Shown: in pieces, positions 19,856 through 63,910 of the stretch
Position numbering within the stretch: position 1 is the stretch's first letter
How the letters are laid out: every line of letters starts with the position of its first letter
Virus record (IMG/VR): IMGVR_UViG_3300021180_000005
Location: 1 to 64,000 of that record
Strand: one strand, 5' to 3'
DNA length: 64,000 nucleotides
Source: a virus
Position numbers and translations under genes: made by a program
Notes under the pieces: model-generated
Seen by the model: only the letters and a program-made list of their open reading frames with translations
What the model was told of the DNA's origin: nothing
Databases searched by the model: none

Positions 19856-19881
19856 GCTGAGTCTCCTATGCTTCAGTATTC

Positions 19882-21216: not shown

Positions 21217-21389
21217 TATCGTAATGTAACCTTTCCTAGCTGTTTCAACTTTGCGTTGAGTTCGTATTTCGTTAAGTGAGTCTCCGAGTCCTTGAACAAT
21301 GCTACGCCGGGGACAACCACTTCTCCCAGTCCGTACGTATTAGCTACGTCAGACTGGGTACGGATGATGTATTCTTTTTGTTCGCTCAT
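21216..21389 (-). CDS. small hypothetical protein
   Basis: ATG at 21389 overlaps the upstream stop (ATGA), giving 57 residues starting MSEQKEYIIRTQSDVANTYG. Looks like a small folded acidic domain. The gene is coupled on both sides, between the HTH-phosphoesterase-like gene and the dNMP kinase. Function unknown. Confidence 0.6.
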   Translation of the reverse strand: MSEQKEYIIRTQSDVANTYGLGEVVVPGVALFKDSETHLTKYELNAKLKQLGKVTLR

Positions 21390-23023
21390 GCTCTCCATTT
21401 ACCATTCTTTAATGTGACTATGGCTCTCTGGCCGTTGACGTACAGAACTACGTGGCTCCATGACCAGCTTGAAGGTCCGGTTGTATAATCCCAGCCTTCT
21501 GTCAGCTTGGATGATGTACCAGCTACATAGAGGCCATGATAAATCCCTGTTGCGTGGGTGTGTGCTGTGGTCGCTTTCTTGCCAACTTTGGCAAGGTTTG
21601 ACGGGCTACCGAACGTACCGTTAGGCCCTAGGTGACCGTGGCATGCAAGCTCAACTTCTTTGACTTCGTACGTCTCATCTGGAAGAAGGAATGAAACCTT
21701 ACCCGGCTCCAGTCCGCCTTCGTTCTCCATTACAAACTTCACTAGGTTGACGTTCTTCGCCAATTTACCTGCGCGGAGTTCGCTGTACATGAAGGACTGT
21801 AGTCGTAAAAAGATTTCAGTGTTGGGTGGATCGACGCGATAGTCGTATTCCTGCAACCAGCGCTTTAACCAAGAGCGATCATGGTTAGCGTCTGGGACAA
21901 TCGTGTTGCACCATGGACGAATGTACCTGTCCAGAACAGCTTTTGTTTGTCGAACTTCTTCATCGACTCGGTGCAGACCTCGTAACCACGCTGTGAACTT
22001 CTCGTGGATTGCTTTGTACTTTCGCATATGCGGATTGATGCTTACACCTTCTAACAGATCGTGTATGACCTGATGTTTGGGTTTAAGCTCGTCCAGCATA
22101 CCCATAGCAGAATCCACAACCTCAGGATGTACATTCGTTGCGTGTAAATCTCCCCATGTGATGGCTTCTACTTTTGCATCTGTAGAGATTACCTGACCGT
22201 CTTCTACGATGACGTTCAAGTCTTGTATGTTCTTTCCGTTCTTTCGTGACGCTACCTGCCGTACCCACCAATTACCATCTGCATCGACCTCAACAATGAG
22301 GAATGCATAACGGTGGTGATGTTCAGCTTTAATGCCTAGCTTCTTCTGAAGGTAATTCATAAGAGTGCAAGCACCCGTTGTATAAATCATCTTGACGGGT
22401 GTGTCAGGCATTGTAGCAATAGAGCGCATCTCGATCTTCGTATGAGGGAAGATGATGCTGTCTGACCCACCGTAGGTCTCAAGTCCAGAGATCGGATTGT
22501 CCTCGGTGGGAAGGATATTCATATTTCCGCTCCACTTCAGGCCGGGAGCTAAACGCCTTGGTACGTCCGCTATGTACGGTTGAATTTTAGGATCGTACCA
22601 TAGTTCATTTTCATGTGGCTTCTTGGTCCCGTTCTTGACGGCAAGTTTGCCAAAGTTATTCTGGTTGTAACTAAACGTGCCCACCAGAATCTGAGCACTG
22701 TAATGCTTTGCCATTGCTTCGACGTTCTTCCAGAAATCCTCGTGAACGAACGTGTTATTCTGGGCGGATGTCAGGATGTAGCGTTTGACATCTCCAGAGG
22801 TTGGTAGTGATTCTTTGATTTCGGCTGCACGCTGCTTACCTCCAGCGATGGGTTTTTTAATACCCAGTTTCTGAAGGTGTTCCCACACGGTACTACGTGC
22901 CAATCCCATAGCTCTAGCGATGTCAGGTACTTTACCTGCATACTTAGAGTATAGTTCAGCGATTTTCTTACGTTGTTGCTCTCCGTGTAGTTGATGCTTG
23001 CTGCGGCTAGCTTTCTGTCCCAT
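21386..23023 (-). CDS. HTH-headed metallophosphoesterase-like protein
   Basis: ATG at 23023 (behind GAGGAACC) is preferred to 23041, which lies almost at the predicted transcription start. 545 residues. N-terminus (KIAELYSKYAGKVPDIARAM and GLARSTVWEHLQKLGI) is a resolvase-like helix-turn-helix. The C-terminal region has CHGHLGPNGTFGSPSNLAKV and TTAHTHATGIYHGLYVAGTS, matching the HGH...GHSHSPGI... metal-site pattern of calcineurin-like phosphoesterases seen in phage A1-type DNA transfer proteins. Probable DNA-binding nuclease or phosphatase acting on DNA; exact role unknown. Confidence 0.7.
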   Translation of the reverse strand: MGQKASRSKHQLHGEQQRKKIAELYSKYAGKVPDIARAMGLARSTVWEHLQKLGIKKPIAGGKQRAAEIKESLPTSGDVKRYILTSAQNNTFVHEDFWKNVEAMAKHYSAQILVGTFSYNQNNFGKLAVKNGTKKPHENELWYDPKIQPYIADVPRRLAPGLKWSGNMNILPTEDNPISGLETYGGSDSIIFPHTKIEMRSIATMPDTPVKMIYTTGACTLMNYLQKKLGIKAEHHHRYAFLIVEVDADGNWWVRQVASRKNGKNIQDLNVIVEDGQVISTDAKVEAITWGDLHATNVHPEVVDSAMGMLDELKPKHQVIHDLLEGVSINPHMRKYKAIHEKFTAWLRGLHRVDEEVRQTKAVLDRYIRPWCNTIVPDANHDRSWLKRWLQEYDYRVDPPNTEIFLRLQSFMYSELRAGKLAKNVNLVKFVMENEGGLEPGKVSFLLPDETYEVKEVELACHGHLGPNGTFGSPSNLAKVGKKATTAHTHATGIYHGLYVAGTSSKLTEGWDYTTGPSSWSWSHVVLYVNGQRAIVTLKNGKWRA

Positions 23024-23047
23024 TGGTTCCTCGTGTGACATGCCTAA

Positions 23048-27740: not shown

Positions 27741-27826
27741 ACTGAGTCTCCTAGTACTTAAAAATCTAGGGAGGCTTTGACTCCCTTTAGCCATGGATTT
27801 CACATGAAGTCGAGAGTAAATCTCGA

Positions 27827-46433: not shown

Positions 46434-47203
46434 CACGCTCTCCTGAGTCTTTGTGGTGCTCTTATCCCTCTTGCTACAGGTTGTGAAGCTATTTGTACTG
46501 TTACAGAATCCAAAGCCACATTAGAGGCAATTTGTGCCACTGTTTTTGTTCCCCATTTATTCTGAAACTTCTCTGCACCTGTACGGCAATCCACTCCCGG
46601 TCCTGTGCGTGCAAAGGTGCTTCCTGCATGTCTGTGCTCTACAGATACCTTAGAAGTAATAGCTAAGGTATAGCCTGCTAGTTGTACCCTGTGGCTATAA
46701 TCGTCATCGTCATAGCCATAACTTCCACCAAACACTGGGTCCATCCATCCCACCGCGTCTATGGTTTCCCTTTTTATGTACGTGCAGATAAGGGCTAGTC
46801 TTTGATGAGAATAGGTTATACCCTCTACCATTGGGTACATTTGCAAATTATTACCCGCTGATCCAAGTATACGAGGGGAAAGCATTCCAATCTTAGGGTC
46901 TGAGTATGCCACTTCTTGTAGCAGCTCCCACGTGTTGCTCTGTAGGAAACGTACGTCATCTCCGCAGTATAAAATATCACTGTCCGGTGCAGCTGCTTGC
47001 CACGCCTTATTTGCATTTCCGGGATTACTAAAAATTGGAGGACCTTGTAAACATGTCCACTTGTCCCCAGTTGGCATGGTAATCTCATTGCCATCTCGTA
47101 CGAATACTTTTGGAATATCTGGCAAGAACTTATCAGCGCTCTCCACAAATACGTTAAAGATATCTGGGAATTTTCCAAGTACTGCAATTGTTACTGGGCG
47201 CAT
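46433..47203 (-). CDS. GT2-like glycosyltransferase
   Basis: A 256-residue GT-A fold enzyme: TIAVLGKFPDIFNVF start, DILYCGDDVRFLQ (DD metal motif), GWMDPVFGGSYGYDDDDYSH (acceptor/metal region) and VSVEHRHAGST. Overlaps the aminotransferase end by 13 bases. Substrate cannot be inferred from sequence alone. Confidence 0.75.
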   Translation of the reverse strand: MRPVTIAVLGKFPDIFNVFVESADKFLPDIPKVFVRDGNEITMPTGDKWTCLQGPPIFSNPGNANKAWQAAAPDSDILYCGDDVRFLQSNTWELLQEVAYSDPKIGMLSPRILGSAGNNLQMYPMVEGITYSHQRLALICTYIKRETIDAVGWMDPVFGGSYGYDDDDYSHRVQLAGYTLAITSKVSVEHRHAGSTFARTGPGVDCRTGAEKFQNKWGTKTVAQIASNVALDSVTVQIASQPVARGIRAPQRLRRA

Positions 47204-48354: not shown

Positions 48355-49127
48355 CTGAGTCTCTTCCTTATCTCTTCATCAATTCTTTTATGAAGGTTTG
48401 TGTACTTCATAGCTTCGTGAAGATTGTCATCAATAGACTTGAGCTTAGACTCATAAAAACTTGAGGAAAGACCTCCTAAAATATCCATGAATTCCTGTTG
48501 TGTTTCAAATGACAATATACTGTCTGTATTAAAATACTCATTGACATTGGGACAACCCCAGTAAATCGGTACAGTGCGAGATACCAAGCAATCTATCAAC
48601 TTTTCTGTGATCCAATTCTTACGTTTTCCGTTTTCCATGACTATAGCGTACTGGAACGGGTATAAAAATTCCTTCTTGTCTTCCACATATGGAGGAGACA
48701 TGTGCTTAATGATGGGTATTTGCCCCGCTTGTGCTGGTAGAGTGTTATATATGTCGTGCCTAAAGTAATGACCCTTGCACATAGTCTTGGAGCTGGTTAA
48801 ATAAGACACAGAGAACTGCTTTTTGGACACATCACAGTCATCTGTCGGGTCTTCAGCCCAGCGGCATGTGCCAAAGATAAACTTATGTGAATTATTAGGG
48901 CATCCTTCTAAGGTTCTTACATTCCACGCTAATATAAGATCATAAAATGTATGACTGTCAAGTAACGTTTGTTCTGTTGGTACGATGTCGGGAGGTTCCA
49001 ACTGAAAGAACACCTTATACTCTGTGGTGTCGGAAAAGTCAAATGTATCTGTGGCTATAGACACAGGTCTAATTTGATCTGCAAAATGATTGTGTAGCGT
49101 CCCACCTATGGTTTTTGTTTTGAACAT
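48351..49127 (-). CDS. GT10 alpha-1,3/4-fucosyltransferase
   Basis: FQYAIVMENGKRKNWITEKL then DCLVSRTVPIYWGCPNVNEY is the GT10 signature (Y-x-F-x-x-x-x-E-N-S/G ... TEKL-x-D-x-L-x-x-x-T-V-P-I-Y-W-G-x-P-N). It would transfer fucose from GDP-fucose to a GlcNAc- or Glc-type acceptor. The ATG at 49127 (preceded by GACTCA) leaves a 22-base overlap with the upstream gene; a start at 49169 or 49214 is possible. Stop overlaps the DegT start (ATGA). No membrane anchor. Confidence 0.85.
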   Translation of the reverse strand: MFKTKTIGGTLHNHFADQIRPVSIATDTFDFSDTTEYKVFFQLEPPDIVPTEQTLLDSHTFYDLILAWNVRTLEGCPNNSHKFIFGTCRWAEDPTDDCDVSKKQFSVSYLTSSKTMCKGHYFRHDIYNTLPAQAGQIPIIKHMSPPYVEDKKEFLYPFQYAIVMENGKRKNWITEKLIDCLVSRTVPIYWGCPNVNEYFNTDSILSFETQQEFMDILGGLSSSFYESKLKSIDDNLHEAMKYTNLHKRIDEEIRKRLR

Positions 49128-50047
49128 TGAGTCGTATACCAATCTATGGTACTCTGAAGTCCTTTCCATAAGGGTGTTCTGGCTCTGAATCCGAAAGTTG
49201 TGGCGCGGGTGCAATCGAACAATCTGCGAGATTGCCCTTCTGGTTTACTGCTGTCCCATTTTGTCAACCCTTGGTGCCCTAGTAGAGAGGTTATCAAACT
49301 AACAACGCTCTCTATAGATACTTCATCACCTGTAGCAATGTTGACTGGTTCTTCATCGTCATATAATTCTGTAGCAAGTACTATAGCCTCTGCGCAGTCC
49401 TCAACATACAGGAACTCACGGCTAGCTTTACCTGTTCCCCAAGCTGTGAAGTCAGTACCGTTTTGCATGGCTTCCATACATTTGCGTATGAGTGATGGAA
49501 TCACATGGGAACGTGCTGGGTCAAAACTATCTCGTGGCCCGTACATGTTCACAGGTACAAGTCCGATAGCATTCATGCCGTACTGCTTGCGATACGCTTT
49601 GCATTGCTCCAAAAGGACACGCTTGGCGATGCCATAGGGGGCATTGGTCTCTTCTGGGTAACCATTCCATAGGTACTCTTCTTTAGCTGGTAAACTAACG
49701 TTCAACGGGTAGGCACACACACTGCTAATTGCTACGAACTTCTCTACGTTATGTTCTCTGGCACCTTCTAGAACTTCTGTATTCATTGTCAGGTTATCAT
49801 ATAGGAACTTTGCAGGGTTTGCAGAGCAGGACTGTATACCGCCGCACATAGCGGCTGCGTGAATTACAACATCTGGGGTATACGCACTATACAGCTCACA
49901 CACTTCTTCACGTCGTCTCAGGTCATAGTCTATGTGTCTAGCAGATACTACATCTTTGCATCCGTGCTCGTGTAGTTTGTCTACAACGTGGCTGCCGAGG
50001 AAACCTTCTCCTCCAGTTACCAGTACACGTTTGGTTGTGAGATTCAT
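49106..50047 (-). CDS. fcl: GDP-L-fucose synthase (epimerase/reductase)
   Basis: A 313-residue extended short-chain dehydrogenase: [18 protein letters not shown] binds [15 protein letters not shown] holds catalytic Ser and Cys, [12 protein letters not shown] the YxxxK pair, and [20 protein letters not shown] is the family signature. It epimerises and reduces GDP-4-keto-6-deoxymannose to GDP-L-fucose; a ColC-like role (colitose) is also possible. Overlaps gmd by four bases (ATGA). Confidence 0.9.
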
Positions 50048-51003
50048 TGTCTGAGTTCCTTTAGATCAGCCTCTACCATCATTATGAGAAGTTCATTCCA
50101 TTTTACCTTAGGTTCCCATCCAAGTTCTCTTTTAGCCTTAGAGGCATCGCCTTGTAAAATATCAACTTCTGTTGGCCTAAAATACTTTTGGTCGATTCCC
50201 ACATAGTCATGCCAATTCATGTCTAAATGACTAAAAACTACTTCAAGCATCTCTTTAATTGAGTGGGTCTCTCCAGTGGCTAAAACATAATCAGATGGAG
50301 TGCCCTTCTGAAGCATACGCCACATACCTTCTACATACTCAGCCGCATAGCCTATATCTCTCTTTGCCTCTAAATTTCCAAGAAGCAATTTGTCTTGAAG
50401 TCCTAACTTTATACGAGCGGCTGCAAGAGTTAATTTGTGCGTTACAAAGGTTTCTCCCCGGCGAGGACTTTCATGGTTGAATAGTATACCGTTGCTGGCA
50501 TGCAATCCTTGCTCTCTTGCATTCACTGTATACCAAAATGCGAACTGCTTGGCAATGCCGTACGGGCTACGAGGGTAAAAAGGTGTGGTCTCTCGTTGTG
50601 GCGTCTCCAGAACCTTGCCGAATAATTCTGAAGAACTAGCTTGGTAGTACCTTGTCTCTGGGCAATGTGTTTTTACAGCCTCCAGAAGTCTAAGTGTTCC
50701 CATAGCGTCTACATCAGCTGTGTATTCAGGGCAGTCAAAACTCACACGTACGTGGGACTGAGCGCCCAAGTTGTAGGTCTCATCGGGTTTTATTTTAGAC
50801 AGCATAGACCCAAGCGCACTGCCATCGCTGAGGTCTCCGAAGTGCAGATGCAATTGGTCAAAAATATGATCTATACGTGCCGTGTTCAAGGAAGATGAAC
50901 GCCTCACAATGCCATGCACTTCGTATCCCTTGCTTAGCAATAGCTCCGACAAGTAGGACCCATCTTGCCCTGTCACCCCGGTAATTAGCGCCTTTTTAGG
51001 CAT
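50044..51003 (-). CDS. gmd: GDP-mannose 4,6-dehydratase
   Basis: A 319-residue SDR enzyme: [78 protein letters not shown] and [17 protein letters not shown] are all Gmd hallmarks, with Thr/Glu/Tyr/Lys catalytic residues present. Converts GDP-D-mannose to GDP-4-keto-6-deoxymannose, the first step of the island. Ribosome region AGACTCAGGAGG; start overlaps the small zinc gene. Confidence 0.95.
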
Positions 51004-51164
51004 CCTTCTTCCTCCTGAGTCTTACATAGTTTATGCATAAGGAAGTACTCTTTATCTCTAATCTCTATATGTGCATCTACTGTTTCTACTCTGTTGGAAC
51101 ACAACACACACCGTCTGCTGTACAGTTTGAAGTACATCTCTAATGCTAATTTTTTCCATTTCAT
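50985..51164 (-). CDS. small Cys/His protein
   Basis: ATG at 51164 overlaps the GT11 stop (ATGA); 59 residues. [20 protein letters not shown] with CVLC and HIE, then [12 protein letters not shown]: a possible zinc site. Embedded between GT11 and gmd. Function unknown. Confidence 0.55.
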
Positions 51165-51898
51165 ATTCTGAGCCATCGTTCTGGTACTATATCTATTGAA
51201 TCTTCATTGCCTGTTCTAAACCACTGCTTAGGAGCTATCACGGTTCCTGTTTTGTCTGCCCCCAACCACGCGCCCCACCATGAGAACGAAGAATTGGCAA
51301 TGATGGCATTCTTGCACTTACTCATTAACCATATGTCTTCATGCGGTGCACAATTTACTCTAGTCATTGGGTATGGCAGTTCTAAATTATAATTCGCATC
51401 ATCTGAGAACACAAAGAAGTGTGGATTAGAAAAATGTTTGGCGGCTTCTTGATAATAACTCATAGGCAGCGTACCATGTCTCTGTGCAGCCCATGTAAGG
51501 TAGTCCCCTCGTCTAACATGAAGCATTACGCTATTTGGTGTATCTCTGATAATAGAAGCTACCACCTGAGCAGATGAACTAGGCGTATCCCTAAGAGTAA
51601 GTTCTGATTTTAGTTCATTTTCTACTATATTGAAATACCTCTCACACTGGTAATAACCTGCCAATATAGCCGGGTCTTCAATTTCTGGATTGGGGTCAAA
51701 ACGCAGTGATCTCTCTGCAACCCATCTCCAGCCGGGATGAGGCAGTATAGGCAGCGCTATGTTGAAACGGTTGAGTTGACACCCATATTGATTGCAAGAG
51801 TCCAGCAGGCTTACCGAATGTGTTTTAGATAAAGAACGAGCAAAGGCATATTGAAATAGAGTGTTGCCTATACCTCCGCATAGATTAACGGATATCAT
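51161..51898 (-). CDS. GT11 alpha-1,2-fucosyltransferase
   Basis: ATG at 51898 (MISVNLCGGIGNTLFQYAFA, preceded by TTAGGACTCAGA) gives 245 residues; the longer frame runs through the upstream gene. HVRRGDYLTW is the GDP-fucose-binding HxRRxDY motif of GT11, followed by FFVFSDD, SKCKNAIIANSSFSWWGAWL. It would add fucose in alpha-1,2 linkage to galactose. Confidence 0.9.
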   Translation of the reverse strand: MISVNLCGGIGNTLFQYAFARSLSKTHSVSLLDSCNQYGCQLNRFNIALPILPHPGWRWVAERSLRFDPNPEIEDPAILAGYYQCERYFNIVENELKSELTLRDTPSSSAQVVASIIRDTPNSVMLHVRRGDYLTWAAQRHGTLPMSYYQEAAKHFSNPHFFVFSDDANYNLELPYPMTRVNCAPHEDIWLMSKCKNAIIANSSFSWWGAWLGADKTGTVIAPKQWFRTGNEDSIDIVPERWLRI

Positions 51899-51906
51899 TC
51901 TGAGTC

Positions 51907-57380: not shown

Positions 57381-57463
57381 TGTCAAGTCTCCATTGCAGG
57401 TTTGGGGGTTTCTGTAATGGACTTGGCCAGTAGGTCCAAAGTATTTGCGATATAAATAAGCAT

Positions 57464-57530
57464 AGGGGGAGTGGAGCAATATACCTCTAACGGACTCAGA
57501 TCGTTAGTTGTTTATACTCACACTCCCCCT
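57464..57530 (-). ncRNA. long symmetric stem-loop, unknown RNA
   Basis: A 10-bp perfect outer stem (57464-57473 with 57521-57530, GGGGGAGTG core), a symmetric 13/13 internal loop, and a 6-bp inner stem CTAACG/CGTTAG with a nine-base loop. On the - strand the loop reads ATCTGAGTC, complementary to the GACTCAG found at many late ribosome sites. Lies in the untranslated leader of the GT4 gene. Confidence 0.55.
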
Positions 57531-57580
57531 AAGGTCTAGTGCTAAAATTACATGGCACCCTACTAATTACACACTGCAAT

Positions 57581-57597
57581 GCGTGACTCAGAAACGC
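57581..57597 (-). ncRNA. second CTGAGTC-loop hairpin
   Basis: A short GCGT/ACGC stem enclosing a nine-base loop that reads TTCTGAGTC on the - strand, sharing TCTGAGTC with the loop at 57493-57501. The stem alone is weak. Confidence 0.35.
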
Positions 57598-57617
57598 TAT
57601 GCGAGTTTTCATTTTCA

Positions 57618-57635
57618 AGTACCAAGCTTGGTACT
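57618..57635. repeat. 18-bp perfect palindrome
   Basis: AGTACCAAGCTTGGTACT between the HNH gene end (57642) and the noncoding RNA region. Could be a protein operator or a terminator stem, although only a weak T run follows on either strand. Confidence 0.6.
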
Positions 57636-57641
57636 AATCTC

Positions 57642-58226
57642 TTAATGACGAGCAGCAATCTCTTTGCAAAGTGCTATGAATTCATCATGTGACAAACTTT
57701 GTTTTGCAAGGTTTGCATCCTTACAACATGGTACGCAGTTCTTTAGCGTATAACCTATAGCTGAGTCTAAACGGTCAATTCCGTTATATGTGTAGGTATC
57801 ATTACCTACCAAAGATAAACCACGTTTGGTTCTATTTCGTGAACTTACAGATGTGTATATGTTTGATGGTTCTCTACCTGTGTAATAGCAGGGAGATTCC
57901 GTAAGTTTTCTAAACTGTTCCTGAGTCAGTTCCCACATAATGCCACGGCTTTTAGCTTGACCTTTGTAATTTCCAAATAGTCCACTAAACTCTGGATTGC
58001 TCACTGTACGAAGACAACCACAGCTGCCTACACGGTTAGACCTTAGCTCATTAGTAGGGACATTTTTAGTATTACCACAGTCACAAAAGCATTGCCACGC
58101 TGTGATTCCATTTTCACTGATGCGTTTTTGCACCACTAAGCGCCTAAAGCGCTGTCCTTCTAAGTCTAAGTGCGCTTTTATTTTTCTAGGTGCTAAATCT
58201 TTACTTCCTTTTGGTCTTCCTAACAT
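57642..58226 (-). CDS. HNH-related homing endonuclease
   Basis: A 194-residue protein: an N-terminal GRPKGSKDLAPRKIKAHLDL and GQRFRRLVVQKRIS module, CFCDCGN and CGCL zinc pairs, then CYYTGREPS, YNGIDRLDSAIGYTLKNCVP and CCKDANLAKQSLSHDEFIAL, an IDRxDxxxGY-type nuclease core. Preceded by a two-hairpin leader and AAGGAGG. Located upstream of the noncoding RNA region at 57.5 kb. Confidence 0.82.
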   Translation of the reverse strand: MLGRPKGSKDLAPRKIKAHLDLEGQRFRRLVVQKRISENGITAWQCFCDCGNTKNVPTNELRSNRVGSCGCLRTVSNPEFSGLFGNYKGQAKSRGIMWELTQEQFRKLTESPCYYTGREPSNIYTSVSSRNRTKRGLSLVGNDTYTYNGIDRLDSAIGYTLKNCVPCCKDANLAKQSLSHDEFIALCKEIAARH

Positions 58227-58240
58227 GATACCTCCTTCAA

Positions 58241-58302
58241 AGGTCGAGAAGGGAGCAGTTGAAGGCTGCTCCCAACTCTGACTCAGGATTATAAGCCCTG
58301 AG
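58241..58302 (-). ncRNA. two-hairpin leader RNA, copy B
   Basis: On the - strand: hairpin I CTCAGG/CCTGAG with loop GCTTATAAT, linker TCAGAG, hairpin II GGGAGCAG/CTGCTCCC framed by GAG/CTC, then GACCTTT and AAGGAGG before the nuclease ATG at 58226. Stem sequences differ from the other copies but pairing is preserved. Confidence 0.7.
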
Positions 58303-58313
58303 GTATTAAAAAT

Positions 58314-59156
58314 TTACTTCTTTTCCATAGGCAGTTGAGGCGATGGCTGAGTCATAGTTTGTTTTGGGGCGTATTTCAAGTTCTCCGTAGCTTCAAAAGC
58401 TTGTGCCCTAGAACGTACACCTGCCTTAATTGCAGAATCCCAGTCTCCAACGCACAGCCCACCACCTTCAAGAGCGTGGAACGGTGCTCCAACTTTGGCA
58501 GGTTGGCCACAACGTGGGCAACTGTCTAGGTGGACCTCGCGTTTATGCCAGTTAAAAGTTTCGTGAAAGTATTCAGCCGCTGCGTGATGCGCCGGGGTTA
58601 ACATTGCTGATAGTGACGCAGGATTAGAAGTCTCTACTGCACGTGCTTCTGTAAGAAGTCCACGGTAATGCTGTTCTAACCTACGTGTAGCAGCGGCTAG
58701 CTCTGTCTCATTAGGCTTCTCGTTGGTAGACCAGAATACTCCCAGTCTTCCTAGATTTTGACCAACAGAGAAACTATTGGTAATGACTGCGTCTTGGTCT
58801 AAAGAAAGATTGTCAGGATTGACAATGTCCATAGCCATGCGACGACCATCGATAACAACAATATCGATATCGTTTGAGTCTACATTTCCCTTTGGGAACT
58901 TAAAAGGAGAAGGTAGTGAGGTAACTACGGCGTACTTTTCCCCTTCCTTACGTGCCGGAATGATCATCTCTTTGATCAGCGGTAGGCGGGAAATCTTATA
59001 TTCTTGCTTTGCGATGTTGAATAGATATACAAAAAAATCTGCTGGGCGACTAAGCATATAGTCGGCAGTAGAAAAGTTCCAATCAATATTGTTGGCTCTA
59101 GTCATACCGTCGCTTAGGTCTGGTCGTCCCTGAGGTCTGCTGCATGTTGCTTCCAT
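58314..59156 (-). CDS. conserved phage protein with zinc ribbon
   Basis: A 280-residue protein: MEATCSRPQGRPDLSDGMTR start, a beta/alpha region (LPLIKEMIIPARKEGEKYAV; DIVVIDGRRMAMDIVNPDNL), helical RRLEQHYRGLLTEARAVE and CPRCGQPAKVGAPFHALEGG near the end. Not recognised by name; it lies among head-assembly genes. CAAGGAG precedes the ATG. Confidence 0.6.
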   Translation of the reverse strand: MEATCSRPQGRPDLSDGMTRANNIDWNFSTADYMLSRPADFFVYLFNIAKQEYKISRLPLIKEMIIPARKEGEKYAVVTSLPSPFKFPKGNVDSNDIDIVVIDGRRMAMDIVNPDNLSLDQDAVITNSFSVGQNLGRLGVFWSTNEKPNETELAAATRRLEQHYRGLLTEARAVETSNPASLSAMLTPAHHAAAEYFHETFNWHKREVHLDSCPRCGQPAKVGAPFHALEGGGLCVGDWDSAIKAGVRSRAQAFEATENLKYAPKQTMTQPSPQLPMEKK

Positions 59157-59197
59157 TTGTTACTCCTTGAGTCTTCTGAGTTTGTAATTCTTAGTTG

Positions 59198-59929: not shown

Positions 59930-60194
59930 TATTCATTGCCTCTCGCTGTGCTTGTACTTGCGCTTTTTTCACTTCTACATACACGTCAATTTCCTGACGA
60001 TCTGTAATTCCTAGTTTCTTTTCTAGGATGAAGTTAAGCAGTAACGCTGCAGTGTCTGCCATGCCCATAAGCTCATTGTCATTAGAAGCTAGCTTCATAA
60101 ACAACGTGTGTGCCTCACGTCTGGACATAGGAGCATCCCAGTACTTATCGTAAGGTTGTTGAATCGGTGAATCTGAACTTATGATCTGAGTCAT
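59910..60194 (-). CDS. small helical protein
   Basis: Ninety-four residues: PMSRREAHTLFMKLASNDNE, a helical ALLLNFILEKKLGITDRQEI and a C-terminal VEVKKAQVQAQREAMNNAQS. Its start codon lies within ATGACTCAGA, so the GACTCAG motif overlaps the start. Function unknown. Confidence 0.55.
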   Translation of the reverse strand: MTQIISSDSPIQQPYDKYWDAPMSRREAHTLFMKLASNDNELMGMADTAALLLNFILEKKLGITDRQEIDVYVEVKKAQVQAQREAMNNAQSNS

Positions 60195-60598
60195 TTGTTC
60201 CTTTCAATATAATCAGCTACTTTTCTCATCCTATCAGGATTGTCATTGAACAAGCCCATACCTCTGTTGCATTTAGTATGTACTATACCTCTTATTTTAC
60301 CTGTCAAGTGGTCATGGTCTACTGGAGGGAATCTATCGCCGTTTTCTTTCTCAGGTAGAGGTTCTTCGCAGGCTGCGCATAACCCTTTCTGCTCTTTCCA
60401 TCTTTGTGCATATTGCTCTGGTGTTAATCCAAAGCTACTTTTTAATGAGCTTTTTCTATGGGATTCTATGGTTTTTTCTGGATTTCTATTTCGCCATTCC
60501 TTAGTATGTGTGTTCTTGCACTCTAAGCAAACTAATCTCCCACCCTGTTGCACCTTAACATGACCCTGTGGACATGTAGATGTACTTGGCCTACCCAT
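60191..60598 (-). CDS. endonuclease VII-like homing endonuclease
   Basis: A 135-residue protein: an N-terminal zinc knuckle (CPQGHVKVQQGGRLVCLEC), FGLTPEQYAQRWKEQKGLCA with CAAC, PPVDHDHLTGKIRGIVHTKC with the DHDH catalytic motif and NRGMGLFNDNPDRM. Standard T4 gp49-type homing nuclease. Overlaps both neighbours by 4-8 bases. Confidence 0.88.
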   Translation of the reverse strand: MGRPSTSTCPQGHVKVQQGGRLVCLECKNTHTKEWRNRNPEKTIESHRKSSLKSSFGLTPEQYAQRWKEQKGLCAACEEPLPEKENGDRFPPVDHDHLTGKIRGIVHTKCNRGMGLFNDNPDRMRKVADYIERNK

Positions 60599-61229
60599 TG
60601 CTACTTTCCAATCCTTCTTCTGCGGTGTTTTCTCTTTCTACCATACGTATGTCCTGTACACGTACCACGCGTAAGCCTTCTGGGTCTGGTTCATAGTTCA
60701 TTTGCACTGAATCACAGAGTACTTCTACTTTTTTCTCATCCATAATGAATACCTCTGAGTTGTAATCACCATAGGTAACACGATCTCCTACACGTACCAC
60801 ATCTCTCATGGGTATTTTCTGTCCACCAAGGATTACGAATTGTCCGACTGCAAGCACAATACCTACATTAGAGTGCTGTCTGTACTTCGCAGCAATGACA
60901 AGTCCTGTCTTTGTGTTTAGAACGCTGCCATCTTCCATGATCTTCATGTCTGAGTTTTCTGCACATCTCTTAATCAGTACACGGTCAAGAATAGGTGATC
61001 CCGAAGCATAGGTCTTATCTGGGTATTTCTTTGGCGCTAATGGAGCTTCTTTAACCTCTGTAGATAACCAATTAGTACGCCTATCAATGACTGTTATACC
61101 TGAACCAAGTTCTTGTGGTTCTTCTGGTGCTACATTTCGTAGTTCAATCGGATCGTTTACTGTGCTTCCACCTGCTGAAAACTGTGCACTGCGTGCGCCC
61201 CTAGCTAGGGAATCGCCTCCGTTTAACAT
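60591..61229 (-). CDS. GroES-like co-chaperonin
   Basis: A 212-residue protein. The N-terminal 80 residues are unrelated; then SPILDRVLIKRCAENSDMKI, LVIAAKYRQHSNVGIVLAVG, and VVRVGDRVTYGDYNSEVFIM follow the GroES pattern (DRVLVK...G-x-V-x-AVG ... V-x-x-GD-x-V-x-x-x-x-Y-G-x-E). Would cap the host GroEL for capsid folding like T4 gp31. Its leader is structured and carries two tandem AGACTCAGGAG-type units. Confidence 0.72.
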   Translation of the reverse strand: MLNGGDSLARGARSAQFSAGGSTVNDPIELRNVAPEEPQELGSGITVIDRRTNWLSTEVKEAPLAPKKYPDKTYASGSPILDRVLIKRCAENSDMKIMEDGSVLNTKTGLVIAAKYRQHSNVGIVLAVGQFVILGGQKIPMRDVVRVGDRVTYGDYNSEVFIMDEKKVEVLCDSVQMNYEPDPEGLRVVRVQDIRMVERENTAEEGLESSNG

Positions 61230-61263
61230 GATTGAGTCTCCTGAGTCTTTTAATGTAATACTA

Positions 61264-62326: not shown

Positions 62327-63253
62327 TTAGATCGTGGGAACAGCAGCGTTCTGTACATAAAGTCCAGCACGAGGGGCGCTATTTGCTAAGTTGAAGCACG
62401 TATTATAGGCAAACATATGGCTGGTCAAATACGTTCCGTTCGTGGTACCCACGTCAGGTACGGGTGCAACCACATTGCCGCCGCCGAAGTCATAAAGCTC
62501 CAGAGGAGAAAGCTCGCCAATGTACCAATTCTCCATGATTAGGAGGTCCATACGCGATGCAGTTGCTGTGGCAGACTTGTGGTACTTACGTCCACCGAAC
62601 GTGTCCGAGAAATAACGCTTGGACATGTCCAGAGTCTTCTCGCCCTTAACTTCCTGAGCGTTTACGATCTGAACGTTGTACATCAAGTTACTCTGTGCAA
62701 ATGCCTGCTCAAGAGGACCATACCAAATGCCGCTCTTTAGCGACTCTGCATCTGGACCGAGTGCTCGTGTCAACAGTACTTCTGCACGTTGCGCGATTCC
62801 GGGGGTAATTGCTGCGCCGTTCAGGTTAATGGTTGGCGTGCTAAGACGACCGGGGTACGCGTTGCGGTTCAGCCCACCGATGGTTCCAGTGTTGCTGTTA
62901 ACATCCCAAGCCTTAATACCTAGGATGGAGTTTCCGCTGCCGTACGATGCACCAGCTACGACGATGTAATCGGTAACAACTACGTCAGAAGGTAGAACGG
63001 TGCTGAAATATAGAGTGTTGCTAGGGCCATCAGAGTAGCTGATAGTTGCCTGTGTAACACCACCAGTACGTTGGACTCCACCTGTGCTGTAGAACTTTAC
63101 GACCTGTTGATCGGTAAAGGCTACTGCAACGTTGATACCAGCAATGCTAGCAGTCTGGGAAGCGGGTGATCCGCCGCTCAGTACAATGGTAGCTGTTGCA
63201 GGAATCTGGTCGATCATCAAATATGTTGCGCCGTTTCGTTTGTATAAACGGCT
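62327..63253 (-). CDS. major capsid protein, exon 2
   Basis: Reads on from exon 1 after intron removal: SRLYKRNGATYLMIDQIPAT and onward. Alpha/beta body with KAWDVNSNTGTIGGLNRNAY, a long helix (AEVLLTRALGPDAESLKSGI) and YVQNAAVPTI end, consistent with an HK97-type major capsid protein of environmental podoviruses. The TTG-initiated ORF start (63220) is an artefact of the intron. A 6-bp hairpin overlaps the stop codon. Confidence 0.78.
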   Translation of the reverse strand, partial: SRLYKRNGATYLMIDQIPATATIVLSGGSPASQTASIAGINVAVAFTDQQVVKFYSTGGVQRTGGVTQATISYSDGPSNTLYFSTVLPSDVVVTDYIVVAGASYGSGNSILGIKAWDVNSNTGTIGGLNRNAYPGRLSTPTINLNGAAITPGIAQRAEVLLTRALGPDAESLKSGIWYGPLEQAFAQSNLMYNVQIVNAQEVKGEKTLDMSKRYFSDTFGGRKYHKSATATASRMDLLIMENWYIGELSPLELYDFGGGNVVAPVPDVGTTNGTYLTSHMFAYNTCFNLANSAPRAGLYVQNAAVPTI

Positions 63254-63910
63254 CTCGTAATTACTTACGAGTTCAGACTATATCATACCTTTACGGTTCA
63301 ACTGTACAAGTTGATCTCTTAGTTCTTGTCTCTTTTGGTGAGCCTCAATGTATATAGGACTGTCTGTAGTCAGCTTCAATCCCTGCTGACATCCATTTCT
63401 TCCTTCGTATACCCGCTCAAACTCTAAACCAATAAGAGCCTGCCGCTTCTTTATCACTAGATAAGGAAGCATTGTTTCAAGAACTGCTATTCGATTGTTC
63501 TTACCTTTAGGCATCCATGCGTATTGTGTTTTGCAGTTGTTCTTGTTTTTAGAGCAACTAACAGAGTACATACCACCAAAATTACTAATCAACCACTGCA
63601 TCAACTCTAGGTTGGTGTTTGCTATCTTCACGTTCATCTGGAAGATGGTTGTGTTGTTTTTGTTGTGGCTAGTACTGATACAAACGGTGCCTTCACCATC
63701 GAACAGCCCAGCCAGATACGACCAGTGCGTTTCATTTGAGTTTTTCATAAAAGTTGTAGTGCTTCGGTCTCACTTGAGACCTACTCCCTTGCGGGATAGT
63801 CGTTACACCTTCCTCAGTTCCGAGGAGCGGCTCGGTATTGTCTGATATACGATTCTATTATATCAGGTTTCCACCGAATTCTCTACATTTTACACGGGCA
63901 GATTTTGTTT
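63254..63910 (-). ncRNA. group I intron in the major capsid gene
   Basis: P1 forms between exon end CACGGGT and internal guide GCCCGTG with a G-U pair at the splice site (63911/63910). P7 strands GACTATC (63801-63795) and GATATAGTC (63284-63276) are conserved group I elements, with GGTGTAAC and AAGACC-like context. A 7-bp hairpin CTCGTAA/TTACGAG closes the 3' end at G63254. Splicing joins GGT to AGC in frame. A LAGLIDADG nuclease gene lies within. Confidence 0.85.
63278..63748 (-). CDS. intron-encoded LAGLIDADG homing endonuclease
   Basis: A 156-residue single-motif enzyme (acts as a dimer): SYLAGLFDGEGTVCISTSHN near residue 11 with the catalytic Asp/Gly/Glu, then FQMNVKIANTNLELMQWLIS and ALIGLEFERVYEGRN. 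Its stop TAG is part of the P7 element GATATAGTC, so ORF and ribozyme are interlocked. Would cleave intronless capsid genes to spread the intron. Confidence 0.9.
   Translation of the reverse strand: MKNSNETHWSYLAGLFDGEGTVCISTSHNKNNTTIFQMNVKIANTNLELMQWLISNFGGMYSVSCSKNKNNCKTQYAWMPKGKNNRIAVLETMLPYLVIKKRQALIGLEFERVYEGRNGCQQGLKLTTDSPIYIEAHQKRQELRDQLVQLNRKGMI

Follow-up and report, generated by a model that had tools for sequence, protein, structure and literature searches.

In Staphylococcus aureus, several C-rich hairpin loops of RNAIII pair with the Shine-Dalgarno (SD) sequences of many mRNAs and block initiation of translation (PMC2837412). In Xanthomonas, the apical loops of sX13 share a common motif, its targets are enriched for the complement of this motif near translation starts, and repression has been demonstrated (PMC3771888). 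The Vibrio cholerae RNAs OppZ and CarZ originate from operon 3' ends and repress genes of the same operon, resulting in their unequal expression (PMC7398697). The accessible sections of a 2025 review of phage regulatory RNAs that act by base pairing (PMC12197685) cover OOP, sas, c4, aQ, PreS, VpdS and 24B_1, whose action is confined to one phage gene in cis, to host targets or to single targets; these sections describe no phage RNA that regulates a tagged set of its own late genes.

We identified a hairpin RNA element in a 64,000-base stretch of phage DNA (the window), whose loops carry the complement of a short tag located at the ribosome sites of many late genes. Its hairpins, like those of RNAIII, show the same short loop sequence for SD regions; however, RNAIII is a host-encoded virulence regulator with plain anti-SD C-rich loops, whereas the present element is a phage RNA with a repeat unit of ~75 nt, and its tag is not a plain SD sequence and marks a subset of phage genes. 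Stable stems, a shared loop motif and complementary sites near starts are held in common with sX13, which is bacterial and directs a C-rich loop to G-rich sites, and for which the available part of the report describes no joint switch of the loop and the target set. The position just downstream of a targeted gene on the same strand resembles that of OppZ and CarZ. The latter are RNase E-dependent bacterial cases, of which OppZ binds Hfq, whereas the present element belongs to a phage, and the window by itself already contains about ten tagged sites. A conserved loop seed and complementary sites at the starts of several separate genes are the features that it shares with the RNAIII and sX13 type of regulators. 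The working principle is known from bacteria; in the literature searched, its proposed use by a phage to address a late regulon of its own by means of a code, with joint evolution of both partners, appears to be new.

The window covers positions 1-64000 of an IMG/VR record for an uncultivated virus (103,649 bases), has a G+C content of 45%, and represents an uncultivated phage family with ~104-kb genomes. Its plus-strand genes include primase/helicase; the minus strand encodes the terminase large subunit, a GroES-like protein, a T5-A1-like DNA transfer protein and glycosyltransferases, and we refer to it as the late strand by inference from its virion genes. The relative G001 is full-length (103,946 bases, 54% G+C), while many other relatives are partial. 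No cultured relative was found by nucleotide search of phage records or by tblastn with the capsid and virion proteins, the terminase search gave only matches below 30% identity, and scans of genome contigs revealed no host or prophage. The T5-A1-like DNA transfer protein family is strongly matched at 21386-23041 on the minus strand (E 1e-152), unlike the capsid and adjoining virion proteins, which match nothing known. The major capsid gene, a single ORF in relatives, is in two pieces here (locus at window 62327-63748 and at 63890-64354 of the G000 contig), separated by a 156-aa ORF (63278-63748) as by an intron or other insertion, and the capsid genes of several relatives also seem to be interrupted.

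Both hairpins of the element have 9-nt loops on the minus strand (TTCTGAGTC and ATCTGAGTC), and the region folds with a z-score of -4.4, in agreement with the two stem-loops and nine-base complementary loops of the preliminary description. Copy 2 appears to have arisen from copy 1 by tandem duplication. An exact hairpin search found no match, thus we used a gapped two-loop pattern, which gave 17 matches, 8 of them dropped as apparent coding false positives (L020, L022, L024, L026, L027, L030-L032). The two-loop layout was observed at the same locus in six distinct relatives, with invariant loops and changed stems; in more distant relatives, there is a single copy followed by an ordinary terminator-like hairpin. 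A covariance model built from eight more distant relatives places the element at the same position in about 20 phages and matches copy 2 of the window weakly. The loop is invariant in all eight seed sequences. In the alignment of the element, 81.9% of cells are paired, and all 21 pairs show double changes. The covariation score reaches 0.672, compared with 0.21 for shuffled and 0.12-0.18 for slid alignments, with the caveat that a model-fitted alignment is biased towards the structure. Conservation in related phages is thereby confirmed, including covarying stems.

In the outer stem P1, pairing reaches 97.5% and eight pairs have changed on both sides; its cells comprise 143 Watson-Crick pairs, 13 G-U pairs and one A-C pair. 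The G-U pairs identify the minus strand as the RNA, which thus exposes CUGAGUC in its loop. An RNA from the opposite strand, with the plus-strand strings TATAAATA near 57450 as promoters, was also considered and is ruled out by the same G-U pairs. Searches against Rfam gave no gathering-level match in the window and nothing relevant around the element at E up to 10, which indicates that it is not a known riboswitch, intron or ornate RNA. The first bases of the element, before P1, are nearly always CUU (CUC in one case), and the last, after P1', are AUG (GUG in one case), often extended to AUGUAA; the corresponding borders in the window are at 57624-57626 and 57551-57553 on the minus strand. 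In many relatives, the element is preceded by an AU-rich leader close to ATTTCAGYA, found in the window at about 57626-57640 and again before copy 2 at 57533-57550 (both minus strand); this leader is possibly a processing site. An extra hairpin just upstream of the element was observed in L071 (before 17841), L075 (before 6788) and L084 (before 10095). Its loop, AACTCAGA (or CCTCAGA), presents the tag itself rather than its complement and could kiss the element's own loop.

In relatives, the element lies directly 3' of the stop codon of a conserved 280-aa gene on the same strand, and this gene is itself tagged in most phages. In G001, the HNH/endonuclease VII-like gene that separates the two in the window is missing from this position. 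Near the element, no sigma-70-like promoter was detected, although the promoters of the host are unknown. Single-copy relatives possess a terminator-like hairpin just downstream of the element; the terminator scan of the window did not pick up copy 2 with its weak U stretch. ARAGORN calls a tRNA-Phe on the plus strand at 58226-58309, which overlaps hairpins before the HNH gene and looks doubtful. The RNA is probably derived from the late transcript, an origin that is inferred in the absence of expression data.

The tag was examined in the window and in related contigs. All minus-strand GACTCAG sites assigned to gene starts in the preliminary description are present; that at 60194 had been placed at or near the start and in fact shares bases with the start codon (ATGACTCAG). 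Likewise, near-matches are present as described at 49127 (GACTCAATG), 53969 (GACTCGGAG) and 59156 (AACTCAGAAGACTCAAGGAG). On both strands of the window, GACTCAG occurs 21 times vs 8.0 expected, a count reached in none of 100 shuffles. Its clustering at starts, earlier based on a manual scan, holds when counted by program: of the 13 minus-strand copies in the late region, 7 precede a start by 0-25 nt, whereas 0.37 would be expected (binomial p 2e-8). A few of these starts were picked with the sites known, and more weight is carried by the multi-genome test on seven non-redundant related contigs with our own programmatic gene calls, where 37 of 108 sense copies are near starts vs 4.7 expected. 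An exhaustive k-mer count in seven related contigs found ACTCA at late-strand starts 85 times vs 9.8 expected (8.6-fold), and 7 times vs 6.9 expected, i.e., without enrichment, at starts on the opposite strand; the respective values for GACTCAG are 34 vs 1.5 and 1 vs 1.1. The SD word AGGAG is enriched on both strands (late, 97 vs 9.5 expected; opposite, 71 vs 6.7). Overall, 131 of 691 late-strand starts are tagged, compared with 4 of 407 on the opposite strand. The motif proposed earlier is thus real, but GACTCAG is not its best form, which is ACTCA(G/A) joined to the SD sequence on either side, CTCAGGAG..ATG or GGAGACTCAG-ATG. A backward-pattern control was unclean for the tag, as GTA..ACTCAG hits stop codons adjoining tags, and we relied on strand and background controls. 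When the bare loops are scored by duplex energy, the enrichment is modest (type 1, 30% of starts vs 15%).

Two types of loop were distinguished, UCUGAGUCC (type 1) and UUGAGACUCC (CCGAGACUCC in one contig) in a single clade (type 2), in which the tag is correspondingly GGAGUCUC. The capsid protein of the type-2 contig L079 is about 59% identical, and CTGAGTC does not occur on the late strand within the 21 kb of its locus. Late starts of this contig show GGAGTCTCA in place of the type-1 tag, and a hairpin with the loop TTGAGACTCC begins 6 bases past the stop codon of the 280-aa gene; this loop is the exact complement of GGAGTCTCAA and contains the only TGAGACT on that strand in 21 kb. L101 and L103 have the loop TTGAGACTCC at the same place, L105 has CCGAGACTCC, and all four contigs have GGAGTCTC tags at starts. 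Over the whole contigs L079, L101, L103 and L105, GAGTCTC..ATG occurs 7, 6, 7 and 2 times on the late strand, respectively, and never on the other strand. Late starts of type-1 contigs carry GACTCA 117 times and GTCTCA 3 times, vs 1 and 12 times in type-2 contigs (Fisher p 1.5e-13, uncorrected for shared ancestry). In L102, L104 and several type-1 contigs, the loop type was assigned by clade, since the contig stops before the element; when only contigs with an observed loop are counted, GACTCA or ACTCAG vs AGTCTC or GTCTCA gives 117 vs 3 for type 1 and 1 vs 13 for type 2. L106, which is distant from both groups, retains the type-1 loop and type-1 tags. The switch may have happened only once on the tree, in which case its many sites are not independent proofs.

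The tagged genes of the window include members of the sugar island with starts at 51898, 51003, 50047, 49127, 48354 and 46433, as the preliminary description had supposed, and the conserved core targets (Table 1). The 280-aa gene is tagged in every type-2 contig that holds it. Across both loop types, the tag is present in 20 of 21 GroES orthologs (GACTCAGGAGACTCAATCATG in the window, GGAGTCTCAATG in L079) and, in 25 of 26 contigs, at the start of a 500-aa gene that immediately precedes the capsid gene. In type-2 relatives, a GroEL chaperonin gene (L079, 14370-16019) lies next to GroES, and its start is untagged. Predicted structures gave no identity for the 280-aa and 500-aa targets: the former has no significant match in PDB, and the latter is mostly helical with a disordered N-terminus and low pTM. 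The place of the 500-aa gene next to the capsid gene suggests, by inference only, a role of its product as a scaffold or in assembly. No tag was detected at the start of the major capsid gene (0/28) or of an 863-aa gene (0/25); some capsid starts were misplaced by the gene caller because many capsid genes are interrupted. In the late-strand homing-endonuclease group, only 3 of 55 genes are tagged. Homing endonuclease genes on this strand (58226 and 62150 in the window) have another start context, ACCTTT..AGGAGGA, across many insertion sites.

Table 1. Coordinates of the hairpin RNA element, tags and associated genes in the window.
Feature	Position	Strand	Evidence or remark
RNA hairpin copy 1: CUU-P1-inner stems-loop UUCUGAGUC-P1'-AUG	57550..57626	-	Covariance model, E 1e-5, best match in the window
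RNA hairpin copy 2: G/C-rich P1, loop AUCUGAGUC, then U-rich stretch	57460..57533	-	Second-best model match in the window, E 0.37; fold
Copy 1 loop heptamer CTGAGTC, complement of target tag	57585..57591	-	Invariant in alignments
Copy 2 loop heptamer CTGAGTC	57493..57499	-	GATCTGAGTCC in 7/7 aligned two-copy sequences
HNH/endonuclease VII-like gene, not part of element	57642..58226	-	Inserted between 280-aa gene and RNA
Conserved 280-aa gene, core target, upstream neighbour of RNA	58314..59156	-	Tag in 27/29 of orthogroup
Tag AACTCAG..GACTCA (then AGGAG), upstream of 59156	59168..59182	-	
GroES-like gene, core target	60591..61229	-	phrog_3188 E 5e-6; NCBIfam GroES E 3e-7
Tag GACTCAG (in GACTCAGGAGACTCA), upstream of GroES start 61229	61241..61247	-	
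Tag (AGGACTCAGAATG), upstream of start 51898	51900..51906	-	Also at start of G003 ortholog
Tag, upstream of start 51003	51015..51021	-	
Near tag AACTCAG, upstream of start 50047	50051..50057	-	
Near tag GACTCA, directly before start 49127	49128..49133	-	
Tag (GAGACTCAGATG), directly before start 48354	48355..48361	-	
Tag, upstream of start 46433	46443..46449	-	Likewise in G005 ortholog
Tag (AGGAGACTCAGTATG), upstream of start 27740	27742..27748	-	
Tag (AGGAGACTCAGCATG), upstream of start 19855	19857..19863	-	

A trans-acting RNA had been offered as one possible explanation of the motif and is now the best-supported one, on the basis of the covarying hairpin, the complementary late-specific tag and the joint switch of loop and tag. 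The tag covers the SD or start region, as with RNAIII and sX13, and the element follows a tagged gene without a recognizable promoter, as with OppZ and CarZ; we thus propose a repressor derived from the late transcript. Specifically, we consider it likely that the phage encodes a trans-acting antisense RNA whose loop pairs with the tagged late ribosome sites and most likely represses them. The RNA, present here in two tandem copies, would be made from the late (minus) strand directly 3' of the 280-aa gene, and its loop would pair with the 7-10 nt tag over the SD or start-codon region, a pairing that is well supported. Such pairing would block 30S binding, so that tagged genes would be repressed as late transcripts build up. 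Expression of the core targets (500-aa gene, GroES, 280-aa gene) and of many genes in the sugar island would be lowered relative to the major capsid gene and other untagged genes, and the negative feedback would uncouple translation inside one operon. At the sequence level, the conserved structure and strand of the RNA, the late-only enrichment of the tag, its conserved core targets and the joint change of both partners are established. The discrete RNA and its cutting or termination from the late transcript are inferred without expression data, and so is repression, which is the most likely outcome judging from the position of the tag only.

The same pairing could have the opposite sign, with the RNA activating or licensing translation of tagged late genes, for example by opening structure, protecting the mRNA or guiding a modified initiation complex. 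The core targets look essential for virion assembly, their tag is kept across large divergence, and it sits tight against the SD sequence as if it were part of the initiation signal. However, its overlap with the SD sequence or start codon, on either side, would bring pairing into competition with the 30S subunit, and the capsid gene, presumably the source of the most abundant product, is never tagged; we regard activation as unlikely. Much less credible is a phage RNA-binding protein of the RegA or CsrA kind that recognizes the tag, with the hairpin as its competitor or unrelated to it. Although such repressors do recognize a short motif at many ribosome sites, a sponge would carry the tag itself, as do protein-sequestering RNAs of the CsrB type, whereas the loops carry its complement; moreover, loop and tag have changed base for base, which a protein would not need.

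We give equally little credence to a role of the hairpins in cis, as a leader or riboswitch for the gene that follows, or to their being mere terminators. They do precede a conserved gene (MSSPTIN..), and a terminator-like hairpin is provided by copy 2 or, where there is a single copy, by the hairpin behind it. This gene, however, has no pairing partner for the loop at its own start in any of 19 orthologs (tag in 0/19), unlike the arrangement of a cis-acting element, and another gene is inserted between in the window; furthermore, the loop is far more conserved than a terminator requires and matches tags elsewhere. That the enrichment arises by chance or from an extended SD preference, ACTCA being the preferred spacer of the host, would fit the usual fusion of tags to GGAG, but is already contradicted and retains almost no plausibility: genes on the opposite strand have ordinary SD sequences without enrichment of ACTCA, homing endonuclease genes on the late strand lack the tag, and the tag differs among clades in step with the loop.

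Beyond antisense repression by the late-transcript RNA, we tentatively suggest, with somewhat less than even confidence, that the element defines a regulon in which the tag serves as an address within ribosome-binding sites, newly captured genes such as those of the sugar island gain it, and loop and tags switch together, in the manner of a transcription factor and its operators but at the RNA level. In the strongest form of this idea, the RNA would be a translation factor setting the stoichiometry of late proteins, possibly by activation. The usual view is that virulent phages set the timing and balance of their late genes by transcription, terminators and the strength of ribosome sites; the element would be a single phage RNA that controls translation of many late genes via a shared, evolvable tag. 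It would also be a natural case in which an RNA seed and the entire set of its targets have evolved in compensation, offer two candidate seed-tag codes for orthogonal control of translation, and indicate that conserved phage RNAs outside Rfam may be found by matching loops to ribosome-site motifs. For this phage family, the tag would give a handle on unknown assembly genes, namely those for the 500-aa and 280-aa proteins.
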